Shown piece by piece: positions 14,258-20,003 of a stretch of DNA of 32,263 nucleotides. Each line of letters begins with the position of its first letter. Within the stretch, counting starts at the first letter, position 1. The notes beneath the pieces were generated by a model. It was given only the letters and a program-made list of their open reading frames with translations. It made no database searches and was not told the DNA's origin. The stretch is from Prosthecobacter debontii (GTDB lineage Bacteria > Verrucomicrobiota > Verrucomicrobiia > Chthoniobacterales > Chthoniobacteraceae). The stretch is from NCBI GenBank assembly GCA_945868985.1, contig CAMBOD010000001.1, forward strand, positions 1-32,263, written 5' to 3'. The translations under genes were made by a program, and so were the position numbers.

Positions 14258-16264
14258 ATGAAGACCAAACACACTCTCATCCTGCTCGTCCTCGCGGCTG
14301 CGGCGTTCGCCTATGTGTGGCTCGTCGAAAAAGAGCGGCCTTCTAGCAATGAAGCGCTCGACAAGGCTGGCCTCGTCAGTGAATTCGAGCGCAACGACAT
14401 TGATGCGATTTCCATTCGTAACCCAACCGGCGCCATCGAACTTCGCAAGCGCGACGGGCACTGGTTCATGGATGCGCCCGTGAAGGATCGCGCGGAGGAA
14501 TTTGCCATCACGCAGCTTTTCACGACTTGCGAAAAACTACGCGGCGAAACGTCACTCGCAGACACGAAAGAGAACCGTGACAAGTGGAAGGAGTGGGGGG
14601 TTTCCAAGGGAGATACTGCGGTGAAGTTTGTCGGCCCGAAGGGTGTGTATGAGATCATCGTGGGCAAGGACACCGTTTATGAAGGGAAAAACTATGCGCG
14701 TGCTGAGGGTTCGAATGTCGTCCACGTCATCAAAAAGAACCTCAAGGATGACCTGAATAAAAACACCGACAACTACCGCGACAAACGCCTGGCCGATATT
14801 ACCCCGGCACAAGTCTCGAAGCTTGTCATCAAGAGCGCGAAAGGAGAGTTTGAGTTGGAGAAGAAAGGAGGTCACTGGTCGCTTATTCGCCCGCTCAAAG
14901 CCCGCGCAGACGATCAGAAAATCGGCGATCTTATAGCTAATGTGACGACAGCACGCATTGAGGAATTTGTGAGCGAAGCAAAGGATCTTGGCTCATTTGG
15001 ACTCACCGAACCGAGGGCGACACTCACTTTCACAGCCGAAGGAGTGAAGGAACCTGTGGTGCTGCAAATCGGCGCTGCCAAGACCGGTAAGAATGAGAAG
15101 AAAAAAGAAGGGGAGGATTTGAATAAATCTGCACTTCCTCAGACGGCGGCTCATGTATTTGTGAAGCTAAGCACGCGCGATGGTGTGGTTACGGTGCCAG
15201 TGGCAATCGAGAGTTTTATCAACACTCAGCCCAACGATCTTCGCGATCAGTGCTTGATGCGCGTGCAGAGCGACATGGTGGATCGCATCACTATAGAAGC
15301 GCCGGGCAAAGAGAAAATCGTGCTCGCACGAAATGCCGAAGCTTGGGTGCGCAAGCAAGATGGCAAGAACGACGTGCCTACGAATAGTGGTGCCGCGAAC
15401 AAGCTGCTGAATGACCTCGTGAGCACAAAAGTCGCGCGTTTTGTCGCGGACATGGCGGGCGAACTGAAAGGCTTCGGCCTTGATCAACCGCAGGCGACGC
15501 TGACTTTGAGCAGCTATTCGACCGAGGGAACTCCCGAGTCGAAACCAGGCGACAAGCCAATTGTGAAGATTCTGCTCGGCAAGTTCGAGGGCGACGCTGG
15601 CTATGCGAAGCTCGACGACGAGCCATTCATCGTAGCCGTTCCGAAAACTGTGCTCGATGGCGTATGGACGGATTCGTTGCAGTGGCAGGACTTGAAGGTT
15701 CTCGATTTAAAAATGGAGGACATTGTCGGATTTGAAATCACACGAACCGGACAGGCATCGCTAAATCTCGTTTTCGACAAAGAAAAGGGCTGGAAACTTT
15801 CCAAGGGCGATAGCGTAGTGAATCAAAACGCCGCGCAATCGCTGGTGAATACGTTCACCTCGCTCCGGGCTGTGCGCTGGGTGGGCGCGACCGATGTCGT
15901 GAAGCATGGTTTTGAAAAACCGAACCTCATCGTTTCCTACACCCTCGCTGACAAGAAGACCGGAAAGATCACCATCGGTGGTAATACTGCCGAAGAACTG
16001 TGGCTCACAACCATCGCGGGTAAAACTGGCACTTTCTTGATGAACAAACCGGACTTCGATGCACTCAATGCTGCGCTCATCGAAACGCCGAAGCCCACGG
16101 CGAATGTTGTAAAGCCGGGAGAGCCAGCCGCTACAACGCCGCCAGTCAACGTGACGACTCCGCCCGCACCGGTCGAGCCCACAAAGGTGACAGAAACTCC
16201 GAAGCCCACCGAAGTTCCTTCGCAAGTCACAAAGCCTGCACCCGAAGCCGCGCCGAAGCCCTAA
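14258..16264 (+). CDS. DUF4340 protein, last gene of the GldAFG-like operon
   Basis: A 668-aa protein with an N-terminal membrane anchor (residues about 5-21, HTLILLVLAAAAFAYVW), then two or more copies of the DUF4340 beta-rich unit. Recurrent phrases such as GAIELRKRDGHWFMDAPVK and GEFELEKKGGHWSLIRPLKA, each followed by a LAD/IGDLI-type helix, mark the repeats. The last 60 or so residues are a Pro/Thr/Val/Lys-rich tail of PKPT-like units, a likely unstructured spacer. DUF4340 proteins regularly follow GldG-like genes, so a structural role next to that complex is inferred. Its TAA stop overlaps the stop of the convergent ubiE gene. Confidence 0.9.
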   Translation: MKTKHTLILLVLAAAAFAYVWLVEKERPSSNEALDKAGLVSEFERNDIDAISIRNPTGAIELRKRDGHWFMDAPVKDRAEEFAITQLFTTCEKLRGETSLADTKENRDKWKEWGVSKGDTAVKFVGPKGVYEIIVGKDTVYEGKNYARAEGSNVVHVIKKNLKDDLNKNTDNYRDKRLADITPAQVSKLVIKSAKGEFELEKKGGHWSLIRPLKARADDQKIGDLIANVTTARIEEFVSEAKDLGSFGLTEPRATLTFTAEGVKEPVVLQIGAAKTGKNEKKKEGEDLNKSALPQTAAHVFVKLSTRDGVVTVPVAIESFINTQPNDLRDQCLMRVQSDMVDRITIEAPGKEKIVLARNAEAWVRKQDGKNDVPTNSGAANKLLNDLVSTKVARFVADMAGELKGFGLDQPQATLTLSSYSTEGTPESKPGDKPIVKILLGKFEGDAGYAKLDDEPFIVAVPKTVLDGVWTDSLQWQDLKVLDLKMEDIVGFEITRTGQASLNLVFDKEKGWKLSKGDSVVNQNAAQSLVNTFTSLRAVRWVGATDVVKHGFEKPNLIVSYTLADKKTGKITIGGNTAEELWLTTIAGKTGTFLMNKPDFDALNAALIETPKPTANVVKPGEPAATTPPVNVTTPPAPVEPTKVTETPKPTEVPSQVTKPAPEAAPKP

Positions 16265-16974
16265 ACTCGGCGGGCGGTGTAGAGTGAGACGATGCCGCCA
16301 GTGAGTGGTCGGCACTGGGTTTCATCGAAGCCCGTGCTGGCGATGAGGCGATTCATCGCTTCGCCCTGCGGAAATTCCTCGATGGATGCGCCCAAGTATT
16401 CATACGCGCTCTTTTCTCCGGTAAGCAGACCGGCGAGGAATGGCACGATGCGATGGAGATAGATGCGGTAGAGCCAGCGCAGTGGCGCGCGTGGCACGGA
16501 AAAATCCAGCACCAGCAAATGTCCGCCGGGGCGCAGCACGCGGGCGAATTCCGCGAGCGCCCGCTCCATGTTTTCCATGTTGCGCAGGCCGAAGGCTACG
16601 GTGAGGACATCAAATTCACCGTTGGAAAATGGAAGATTCATTGCGTCGGCCTGCACGAGGTTGGTGAGGCCTTTGCTCCGGGCCAGGTCCAGCATCGGCT
16701 GGCAAAAATCTGCGCCAACAATTGTGGCCGACGGGCATTGTTTTGTGATGGCCAGCGCCAGATCGCCGCTGCCGGTGGCCATATCCAGAACGCGCTTTGG
16801 AGCCCAACTATGGACGATTTTCGCCGCCCGTCGGCGCCATAGAAAATCGAGTCCACCACTGAGTAGATGATTCGCCAGATCGTAGCGTCCTGCAATTGCG
16901 CCGAAGAGGCGCTGGACGATGGGCCCCTTGCCGGGTTCCGGCTTGGGACTTGGTTTAGTGGCGATATCGGTCAC
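16261..16974 (-). CDS. ubiE: demethylmenaquinone/ubiquinone C-methyltransferase
   Basis: A 237-aa class I SAM-dependent methyltransferase for the last step of menaquinone (MenG) or a late step of ubiquinone synthesis; in this phylum menaquinone is the likely product. The UbiE signatures are FGAIAGRYDLANHLLSGGLD, the SAM loop VLDMATGSGDLAL, FGLRNMENMERALAEFARVL with RPGGHLLVLDFS, and YEYLGASIEEFPQG. The start is GTG at 16974; no upstream ATG is in frame and no Shine-Dalgarno site is visible. The N-terminus is Pro/Lys-rich. It is divergent from the hybrid kinase gene with only 16 bases between starts, so promoters must lie within coding DNA. The 3' end overlaps the DUF4340 stop. Confidence 0.95.
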   Translation of the reverse strand: MTDIATKPSPKPEPGKGPIVQRLFGAIAGRYDLANHLLSGGLDFLWRRRAAKIVHSWAPKRVLDMATGSGDLALAITKQCPSATIVGADFCQPMLDLARSKGLTNLVQADAMNLPFSNGEFDVLTVAFGLRNMENMERALAEFARVLRPGGHLLVLDFSVPRAPLRWLYRIYLHRIVPFLAGLLTGEKSAYEYLGASIEEFPQGEAMNRLIASTGFDETQCRPLTGGIVSLYTARRV

Positions 16975-16990: not shown

Positions 16991-17575
16991 GTGCTAAGTA
17001 GTGCGTCGAACGAAACCTGCGACGACAGCCCATCGCAAATGTCCTTACTTCAAAATTCTCCTGCAAAAATTCTCATCATTGATGATGAGCCATCGAATGT
17101 CCGCCTCCTCGAGCGGATGCTGGACCTTTTTGGCGGGCTCGAATACCGCACAACTACTGACCCTCGCGAGGCGGTGTCTATGTTCGCCGAGTTCCAGCCC
17201 GATCTAGTGCTCACGGATCTCCATATGCCACATATTGACGGCTACGGACTCATGGAGCAGTTGAGGCAACTCATCCCGGAAGGCAGCTTTTTACCCATCG
17301 TAGTGCTTACAGCGGATATTACTGCGGAAACGCGACGCAAGGCTCTGGCGACGGGTGCGAGTGATTTCATCACAAAGCCGCTAGATACAACGGAGGTGCA
17401 ACTGCGCATCCGCAATTTACTCGAAAACCGTTTTCTCAACCTGAAACTCGAAGAGCAGGTCTTGCAACGAACAATCGAATTGGAGCATGCGCTCGAACAG
17501 CTACGTGCGACGCAGAATCAAGTCGTGAAACAGGAGCGTCTCAGCGCGCTGGGAACAATGGCCGGGGGGGGGTAG
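16991..17575 (+). CDS. hybrid histidine kinase, 5' part: receiver domain and start of kinase (frameshifted)
   Basis: The 5' part of a REC-kinase-REC gene. The GTG at 16991 is chosen for its ribosome site; ATG 17039 is the alternative. The receiver domain begins KILIIDDEPSNVRLLERMLD, has the phospho-acceptor Asp in DLVLTDLHMPHIDGYGL, the Thr in VVLTAD and the Lys in FITKPLD. A coiled coil (LEEQVLQRTIELEHALEQLR) leads to the H-box start LSALGTMAGG. Then a run of nine G (17564-17572) sends the frame into TAG at 17573-17575. With seven or ten G the frame would continue as VAHDFNN, the H-box with the phosphorylated His. As written, the product is a receiver protein with a dimerising tail and no kinase. 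Confidence 0.8.
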   Translation: MLSSASNETCDDSPSQMSLLQNSPAKILIIDDEPSNVRLLERMLDLFGGLEYRTTTDPREAVSMFAEFQPDLVLTDLHMPHIDGYGLMEQLRQLIPEGSFLPIVVLTADITAETRRKALATGASDFITKPLDTTEVQLRIRNLLENRFLNLKLEEQVLQRTIELEHALEQLRATQNQVVKQERLSALGTMAGGG

Positions 17576-17601
17576 CACATGATTTCAATAACACGCTGAC
17601 G

Positions 17602-18630
17602 ATGATGATCGGCTACGGCGAGATGTTGCTGCCGTGGTTTGAAAAAGCAGCACCGGATACAAAGGAGCAAACGTATCTCAAGCACATCGTCTCTGCCGCG
17701 CAGGACGCAACGCATGTCGTAAAACGTCTGCGCGATTTCTATCGTCCTGCGGATGCTGCCGATGTGCGTGTAGCCGTGGACTTGAACCAGCTTTGCGAGC
17801 AGGCCGTCGGTTTTACCGCTCCGAAATGGAAAGGTGCGTCGCGCGCTGCTGGCGCATCAATCGAAGTAGTGCATGATTTCAGCGAAGTGCCGTTCGTGCT
17901 CGGTTGCGCACCGGAGTTGCGCGAAGTGCTGACGAATCTCATTTTCAACGCAGTGGATGCGATGCCCGAAGGCGGGCAGATCACCGTGCGCACTCGCTCA
18001 CTGCCAAATCATGTGCGAGTGGATGTGACTGACACCGGCATCGGCATGACGCCTGAGGAAAAGGTGCGCTGCCTCGAACCATTCTTCACCACGAAGGGCG
18101 AACACGGAACCGGGCTGGGGCTCGCCGTCACCTACGGTATCGTGCAGCGCCATGGTGGGCACATCGAAATCGAGAGCGAAAAAGGGTGCGGCACTACATT
18201 TTCACTGTTGTTTCCGGTGGCGGATTCAGATGCGAACAATGGGACTGTGGCACTCGCAAAGGATGCGGTGCGCTCACTGCGCGTGCTAGTGGTGGACGAT
18301 CAGGAGATCATCTGCGAACTCATATCCGAACACCTCATCGCCGACGGGCATCAGCCGGTGACAACTTCGGAAGTCGAGAATGCGATCCAATTTTTGAGAG
18401 ACGGTAGTTTCGATTTGGTCGTCACCGACCAATCCATGCCCGTCATGAATGGGATTCAGTTTGGGCAGATGGTGAAGCAAATGCACCCAACGACGCCTGT
18501 GATTTTACTCACCGGTTTTGGAGATGAGTTGAAAGTGAATGGTCAAATGCCGGATTGCATAGACATGATCGTCTCAAAGCCGGTGTCATCGGTCGAACTC
18601 CGCCGGGCGATACTCGAAGTCACAAAATAA
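17602..18630 (+). CDS. hybrid histidine kinase, 3' part: DHp/ATPase and C-terminal receiver
   Basis: The continuation of the split kinase in another frame. The first ATG after the break is at 17602, but homologous sequence begins at about 17571 with VAHDFNNTLTM, so a product started at 17602 would lack the phosphorylated His. The ATPase domain is complete: N-box LIFNAVDAMPEGG, G1 DTGIGMTPEE, F-box LEPFFTTKGE, G2 HGTGLGLAVTYG. The C-terminal receiver has VLVVDDQEI, the Asp in DLVVTDQSMPVMNG and the Lys in IVSKPVSS. It belongs to the HDFNN (NtrB-like) kinase group. No output domain or dedicated response regulator is nearby. A terminator lies at 18651-18670. Confidence 0.82.
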   Translation: MMIGYGEMLLPWFEKAAPDTKEQTYLKHIVSAAQDATHVVKRLRDFYRPADAADVRVAVDLNQLCEQAVGFTAPKWKGASRAAGASIEVVHDFSEVPFVLGCAPELREVLTNLIFNAVDAMPEGGQITVRTRSLPNHVRVDVTDTGIGMTPEEKVRCLEPFFTTKGEHGTGLGLAVTYGIVQRHGGHIEIESEKGCGTTFSLLFPVADSDANNGTVALAKDAVRSLRVLVVDDQEIICELISEHLIADGHQPVTTSEVENAIQFLRDGSFDLVVTDQSMPVMNGIQFGQMVKQMHPTTPVILLTGFGDELKVNGQMPDCIDMIVSKPVSSVELRRAILEVTK

Positions 18631-18677: not shown

Positions 18678-18685
18678 CAAAGAAG

Positions 18686-18767
18686 TGCTCGCGAGAGGAA
18701 TCGAACCTCCATGGGTCTCCCCATATGATTCTGAATCATACGCGTCTGCCAGTTTCGCCACGCGAGC
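18686..18767 (-). tRNA. tRNA-Leu (anticodon CAG)
   Basis: The minus strand folds into a class II tRNA. The acceptor stem is GCTCGCG (18761-18767) with CGCGAGC and discriminator A at 18686. The D-arm includes TGGCGAAACTGGCAGACGCG, typical of tRNA-Leu. The anticodon stem is TATGA/TCATA around the loop TTCAGAA (anticodon CAG, reading CUG). There is a long variable arm (TGGG-GAGA-CCCA) and a T-arm with GGTTCGATTCC. The 3' CCA is not encoded. Confidence 0.93.
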
Positions 18768-18829: not shown

Positions 18830-19924
18830 TTACGAGATGCGCATCGGCATCAGCACATAGAGGAACGGCGTGCCGATTTTGATCACGCCCGGGCTCATCT
18901 CATCAATGAGGTCAATATGCACTTCATCATCGGTGAGATTGCGGAGCGGATCTTGAAGGAATCCGGGGTTGAATGCGATGGACATTTCCTTGCCCTTGAA
19001 ATTGACCGCGAGGGATTCGTGCGCTTCGCCGACTTCCGGTGTGTTCGCGGTGATTTCGAGGTTGTTCTTGGTGAAAATCAATTTCACCGAGTTGGATTTG
19101 TCGCTCGAAAGCAGCGATACGCGGCGCACTGCGGTGAGCAACAATTCGCGCTCGATGGTCACGCGCTCCTTGGCTTCCGGTGGGATGACTTGTTTGTAGT
19201 TCGGGTAGTTGCCTTCGATGAGTTTGGAGACCAGGACTTTTCCGTTTACGTCGAAGCCGACTTGGTTTTCACCGACGTTCATTTTGATCTCGCCCTCTTC
19301 ACCGAGCAGGCGCTGGAGTTCAGTTACGCATTTAGAGGGAACGATCACGTCCACTTCCTGTCCGCGAGGAAATTCCAATTCGAGATCCACAAGCGCGAGG
19401 CGGCGGCCATCGGTGGCCACCATGGTCAGTTTGCCCTCTTTGAAAGAAAACAGGATGCCATTCAGCACGTAGCGCGTTTCGTCTGTCGAGATCGCGAAGG
19501 CGGTTTTTCGCAGCGCGTCCTTCAATTCCTTTTGGCGGAGCGTGAAGACTTTTGCGTCGGCCAGCTTGGGCAATGCAGGGAACTCCTCCTCGGCGAGGCC
19601 CATCATTTTGAAAAAACTCTGGCCGCAGCGAATGGACGCGATGTTCTTGCTGTCCACTTCGACTTCCACATCGGCGGCTGGCAGTTCTTTCACGATGCTC
19701 GCGAGGCGCCGGGCGGGCAGTGTGGTGCCGCCGCCTTTTTCCACCTTGGCTTCCACGGTGCAGCTCATGCCCACATCGAGGTCGTTTGTGGTGAAGCGCA
19801 ACACGCCGTCTTCGGCGCGGATGAGGACGTTGGAAAGTATCGGCAGCGTAGTGCGTGTGCTGACGATGTTTTGGACGGTCTGGAGACCATCAAGGAGTTT
19901 GTCTTTGGCGACGTTGAATTTCAT
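18830..19924 (-). CDS. dnaN: DNA polymerase III beta subunit (sliding clamp)
   Basis: 364 aa from the ATG 19924 (MKFNVAKDKLLDGLQTVQN), the normal length; the frame is open upstream to 19996, but that extension covers the inverted repeat. It forms the ring-shaped clamp holding the replicase on DNA. Visible family features are VSTRTTLPILSNVLI in domain 1, NDLDVGMSC, the central TDETRYVLNGILF with MVATDGRRLAL, IVPSKCVTELQRLL, IEGNYPNYKQVIP, VRRVSLLSSDKSNSVKL and the C-terminal PFLYVLMPMR. dnaA, recF and gyrB are not adjacent, so this is not the classic dnaA-dnaN origin arrangement. Probably transcribed alone from the gap upstream. Confidence 0.97.
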   Translation of the reverse strand: MKFNVAKDKLLDGLQTVQNIVSTRTTLPILSNVLIRAEDGVLRFTTNDLDVGMSCTVEAKVEKGGGTTLPARRLASIVKELPAADVEVEVDSKNIASIRCGQSFFKMMGLAEEEFPALPKLADAKVFTLRQKELKDALRKTAFAISTDETRYVLNGILFSFKEGKLTMVATDGRRLALVDLELEFPRGQEVDVIVPSKCVTELQRLLGEEGEIKMNVGENQVGFDVNGKVLVSKLIEGNYPNYKQVIPPEAKERVTIERELLLTAVRRVSLLSSDKSNSVKLIFTKNNLEITANTPEVGEAHESLAVNFKGKEMSIAFNPGFLQDPLRNLTDDEVHIDLIDEMSPGVIKIGTPFLYVLMPMRIS

Positions 19925-19964
19925 AACGTATATGGGTGGGTAAAGTTCCGCGCCTTTTGACCGA

Positions 19965-20003
19965 ACATCTTGTGGGGTGCAAACTTTTTTAGCCACAAGA
20001 TGT
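19965..20003. repeat. perfect 11-bp inverted repeat upstream of dnaN
   Basis: ACATCTTGTGG (19965-19975) and CCACAAGATGT (19993-20003) are perfect reverse complements separated by 17 bases that include a run of six T. The element is 41-79 bases before the dnaN start, in the short gap after the TolC-like gene. TTAGCCACA (19989-19997), across the right arm, differs from the DnaA box TTATCCACA at one base. It could be an operator, a hairpin in the dnaN leader, or a weak terminator of the upstream gene (the T/A run is in the loop, not after the stem). Confidence 0.65.

Follow-up and report, generated by a model that had tools for sequence, protein, structure and literature searches.

A run of nine G interrupts the H-box of a hybrid histidine kinase gene in a draft Prosthecobacter debontii genome

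The locus and its reading frames

The window analyzed here, 32,263 bases of Prosthecobacter debontii DNA, makes up contig C1 of a draft genome that totals 2,516,090 bases (408 contigs, 76% complete). It carries a hybrid histidine kinase gene whose reading frame is broken inside the H-box by nine consecutive G residues, in the context ATGGCC-G9-TAGCACATGATTTC (Table 1). The upstream frame, whose ATG start aligns with residue 1 of the orthologue at locus L033, yields a protein with the C-terminal end ...LSALGTMAGGG, and a TAG stop follows the run directly. The shifted frame downstream translates as VAHDFNNTLTMM... and stays open for 352 residues. A preliminary description of this DNA had placed the stop at the nine G, inside the H-box, and had predicted that seven G would restore MAGGVAHDFNN; reading the sequence confirmed both. 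With ten G the frame would open as well, and the H-box would gain a third Gly; with eight it would stay shut. The run is therefore two bases longer than the canonical H-box requires, and a change of one base cannot turn nine G into the canonical two-Gly form.

Joined, the two frames are one ordinary REC-HisKA-HATPase_c-REC hybrid histidine kinase gene. Pfam models assign Response_reg to the first part and HisKA, HATPase_c and Response_reg to the second, all above the gathering score (HisKA at 27.9 bits against a cut-off of 26.9). Domain order and H-box, once the frames are joined, are those of REC-HisKA-HATPase_c-REC kinases with MAGG[IV]AHDFNN; those kinases are continuous, whereas the four domains in the window are divided between two frames. 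A search of solved structures returned general histidine kinase and receiver relatives and nothing more specific. The H of AHDFNN is, we presume from the HisKA family, the phosphorylated residue, and the kinase part contains no ATG, GTG or TTG start before an ATG that lies 3' of this codon. Automatic gene calling would report a receiver on its own and a kinase without its head here, where very likely the species possesses a single hybrid kinase or did so until recently.

Table 1 Features of the interrupted kinase gene and its neighbors, in window coordinates
Feature	Position	Strand	Evidence
UbiE/MenG ubiquinone/menaquinone methyltransferase, synteny anchor	16261..16974	-	Over NCBIfam cut-off
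Upstream part: receiver domain, linker and H-box start, 178 aa, stop TAG 17573-17575	17039..17575	+	ORF
First receiver domain (Response_reg, residues 11-124 of upstream protein)	17069..17410	+	Pfam
G9 run; frame break dividing receiver part from kinase part	17564..17572	+	Sequence read
Downstream part, shifted frame: VAHDFNN..., 352 aa, stop-free inside, stop codon ending at 18630	17572..18630	+	ORF
HisKA part (residues 1-58 of downstream protein)	17572..17745	+	Pfam
Codon of predicted phosphorylated His (H of AHDFNN)	17578..17580	+	Sequence
ORF from first start codon (ATG) in downstream frame; would lack the His	17602..18630	+	ORF list
HATPase_c (residues 114-217 of downstream protein)	17911..18222	+	Pfam
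Second receiver domain (residues 238-347 of downstream protein)	18283..18612	+	Pfam
tRNA-Leu (CAG), neighbor	18685..18767	-	
DNA polymerase III beta subunit (dnaN), synteny anchor	18830..19996	-	Over NCBIfam cut-off

Orthologues and synteny

A scan of named genomes gave 28 loci, the ten closest of which (L032-L041) include one, L039, that is masked with N at the H-box. The nine readable orthologues (L032-L038, L040 and L041) all encode MAGG[VI]AHDFNN in a single open frame free of internal stops, and their longest G runs, taken over the whole gene, measure 3-6 bases. In the two nearest sisters, the H-box is written GGCGGTGTG and GGCGGGGTC. The closest full-length matches in relatives, among the matches listed, are stop-free open frames of 533-941 codons; the match in genome G005 covers residues 41-351 only. 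Neighboring genes agree as far as the loci reach (UbiE/MenG, dnaN, a TolC-like protein and GldA/F/G-like ABC genes, the TolC-like and ABC assignments being below cut-offs), and it was this synteny with L033 and others that allowed the kinase gene to be identified across relatives. Along the ~7.3-21.6 kb shared with a sister contig (G007:C14), the kinase is the one split gene of the twelve counted by eye as real, and the other 11 are unsplit; shadow ORFs were excluded from this count, and none was flagged.

G-rich H-boxes in the phylum and class

Among 387 genomes of the phylum, 48 had a match in the scan for at least six G at the H-box, and 61 sites were checked, including the window's. Six G were present at 44 sites, seven at 12, eight at four and nine at one. 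The frame is intact at the run in 59 of the 61, the exceptions being the window and L181. The class scan, for at least seven G, matched 10 of 384 genomes and gave nine sites besides that of the window, all in frame; three of these had already been counted and six were new. Pooled, 65 of the 66 other G-rich H-boxes are in frame, every one of the 65 with two Gly, and none of the 66 has three; these scans see long-G-run H-boxes only, so that breaks through shortening would escape them. All 22 sites with 7-8 G other than the window are in frame, which argues against frequent slippage or frequent error at runs of this length. On the evidence of the 66 sites, Gly spacing is strict, runs of 7-8 G are usually stable and a broken run is rare and not confined to the lineage of the window.

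Several individual sites deserve mention. L181 (G243:C225, near 30050), from a different family of the phylum, has six G where five would be in frame, an excess of one. At L191 and L195 the frame is intact, with Thr in place of Ala. In L149 the frame is irregular a few codons 5' of the tract, outside the tract itself.

The survey also bears on whether the interrupted frame could be read through by programmed recoding, either by a -1 ribosomal shift on GGG GGG GGG TAG or by transcript slippage, giving both a receiver-only and a full-length protein. The slippery run with a stop directly after it would suit such a process, and a -1 shift would give MAGGGVAHDFNN. However, the site is missing from the nine readable orthologues, the other 66 G-rich H-boxes all lack the extra Gly of the product, and RNA structure in the 108 nt 3' of the tract is not unusual (z -0.26). 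We regard recoding as having almost no probability; a programmed frameshift was ruled out on the non-conserved frame transition and the lack of a stimulatory RNA structure in those 108 nt.

Selection on the two halves

The receiver half is 91-92% identical and the kinase half 78-79% identical to the two nearest sisters. The preliminary description had called both parts 'fully conserved'; conserved they are, and 'fully' is somewhat strong at these identities. Across the downstream half, identity is 0.787 between the window and L032, 0.781 between the window and L033 and 0.764 between the two sisters, with dN/dS of 0.140, 0.091 and 0.099, respectively; dS is high among the three (about 1 to 1.5), which makes these ratios rough. 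Singleton residues in the downstream half number 19 in the window, 25 in L032 and 27 in L033. At 166 columns invariant in four outgroups, private changes number four in the window, four in L032 and none in L033.

Relaxed selection after the break thus left no sign in the downstream half, where dN/dS and singletons resemble those of the sisters, and the window copy bears no sign, as judged from these comparisons, of selection-free existence over a large part of its branch. Purifying selection like that in the sisters implies that the break is very recent, or is not real, or has been without lasting effect. The earlier view that the break is recent or artificial is accordingly backed by the nine intact orthologues, the unrelaxed selection and the other 11 shared genes, which are unsplit.

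The same data weigh on a fixed split, by which the gene would now encode a receiver alone, and what is left of the kinase would be either a pseudogene or a gene in its own right. Both halves are open, as this reading would have it. However, the downstream half is without decay, its first start lies 3' of the phosphorylated His and none of the nine readable named orthologues is split; we consider a fixed split exceedingly improbable. Two forms of it were ruled out: an independent downstream gene on the position of the first in-frame start after the His, and a long-standing pseudogene on the absence of relaxed selection in the downstream half.

A probable private change in tract length

From the break, its absence in the examined relatives and the intact downstream selection, we infer that the G run is, with high probability, a private, non-conserved length change in this draft genome and not an evolved switch. 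The run that encodes the Gly-Gly of the H-box would have been lengthened by two bases relative to the canonical form in this one genome. As to cause, we give about an even chance to a real, very recent slipped-strand mutation, which we favor over a base-call or assembly length error. If the mutation is real, the product would be a 178-residue protein of receiver and linker only, and the kinase part would either go untranslated or begin at the ATG at 17602, without the phosphorylated His. In line with a private lesion, one report holds singleton frameshifted genes to be likely indels or sequencing errors (PMC3711429). Against it, a change of two bases exceeds the usual one-base slip or error.

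If the length is a sequencing or assembly error, the true tract in the cell is in frame and a normal kinase is made. The fragmented state of the draft and the intact downstream selection fit this reading, and the broken run at L181, in another genome of the phylum, indicates that breaks occur elsewhere at a low rate. Homopolymer errors have been reported in 0.32-1.02% of genes on Illumina contigs from a lake metagenome, and in about 1% of proteins at 10x coverage of Illumina metagenome contigs (PMC3277595). However, a single-base miscall works only if the true run is G10, which would bring the three-Gly H-box seen at none of the 66 other sites. The draft genome contains 26 other runs of G7-G8, and the 24 checked by eye show no clear gene break; this check is weak, with several of the runs intergenic or near contig ends, L019 the least clear and the runs on C364 and C392 without a locus. 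The 11 unsplit genes of the 12 shared with the sister contig likewise speak against error. A length error thus rates somewhat below an even chance; homopolymer error across the whole genome was rejected on the 24 of 26 runs without a clear break, a weak test, and on the 11 of 12 genes unsplit.

Phase variation as an alternative

The preliminary description had proposed a natural on/off switch, in which reversible slippage of the G run would toggle the kinase and leave a free receiver in the off state. In favor of a switch, the G9 run lies in the coding region of a sensor kinase, downstream coding is maintained, and bvgS of Bordetella offers a precedent. In Bordetella pertussis, a homopolymer length change likewise truncates the sensor kinase BvgS, the gene switching between C6 and C7 (PMC1891110). 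The window tract, present in the assembly at a single length, differs from this system in being absent from the relatives examined and in lying two bases off the canonical length; bvgS shows that kinase switching is possible, but its link to the window gene is one of resemblance only. Another two-component pair, flgS/flgR of Campylobacter jejuni, also undergoes frameshifts, in poly-A/T tracts, which the reports term non-reversible owing to the shortness of the tracts (PMC8355987, PMC3928116). As described there, those are A/T tracts among laboratory variants, whereas the window presents one G run in one draft genome.

The gene has one feature of a contingency locus, a long coding homopolymer, and lacks another, conservation of the tract among related species: all nine named orthologues with a readable H-box are without it. 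It is also the sole G/C run of at least nine bases in the draft genome, which has four A/T runs of that length, and the canonical H-box is out of reach from nine G by a single-base step. On these three counts the proposed switch goes unsupported. Both mutS and mutL are present in the genome, each over its cut-off, and there is thus no sign of a mutator. We consider phase variation of this kinase unlikely. Equally doubtful is the broader proposition that the Gly-Gly run of the H-box is a slippage hot spot by which a free-living Verrucomicrobiota species switches a hybrid kinase between the full kinase and a free receiver. If reads were to show the tract at mixed lengths, the gene would be a sensor kinase subject to phase variation, in an environmental lineage without cultured members.

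Matches to G8 within the window are unremarkable in number, with at least as many in 18 of 100 shuffles. Searching viral_contigs with a 33-base piece of the window gave no match.

Long G runs in the genus

G/C runs of nine or more bases occur in every one of the nine other same-genus genomes searched. These runs number 42, partly classified, and two of them break a frame. At L106:1501-1509 (G002), a G9 run splits a YGTT-repeat protein that would be in frame with G7; at L113:1501-1509 (G006), another G9 run splits an autotransporter-like repeat protein (both labels assigned by eye). Long G/C runs at L103, L110 and L129 (G001, G003 and G005) are situated roughly 100 bases or less from contig ends and may be an assembly effect.

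The breaks at L106 and L113 speak for real slippage, and may also come from a weakness at G9 runs that the assemblies share. Taken with the poly-G leaders of the genus, described below, they suggest that variation in tract length is perhaps more of a genus theme than a private lesion would imply, and the presence of such G9 breaks and leaders counts in favor of a switch in the kinase gene.

Genome G008 has three near-identical leaders with poly-G tracts of 12 (L135:1501-1512), 11 (L137:768-778) and 16 bases (L138:1501-1516). They are 100, 98 and 95% identical over a 200-base query that was itself one of the three. In each, TTGCACTC is followed by the G tract (16, 12 or 11), by 0-4 further bases and by CATTTT or CACTTT, and promoter-like hexamers, picked by eye, are 16-18 bases apart. 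Each of the leaders precedes an ORF scoring above the cut-off of the PEP-CTERM sorting-signal model. On sequence grounds their anatomy is like that of a putative phase-variable promoter, for which the poly-C tracts of Bordetella fimbrial promoters are a known parallel (PMC1891110). Were the H-box hot spot real, it and the PEP-CTERM poly-G leaders would together indicate that G tracts are phase-variable in an environmental genus.

Rfam gave no match on five loci with poly-G leaders. The 200-base query also had nine further partial matches, in G006, G002, G007 and G008, and a simple pattern test found in them no such box with a nearby G run. Elsewhere in the genus, at L123:1501-1511 (G009) and L114:1501-1509 (G007), a TTGACA- or TGTGACA-like box is followed by a G11 or G9 run.
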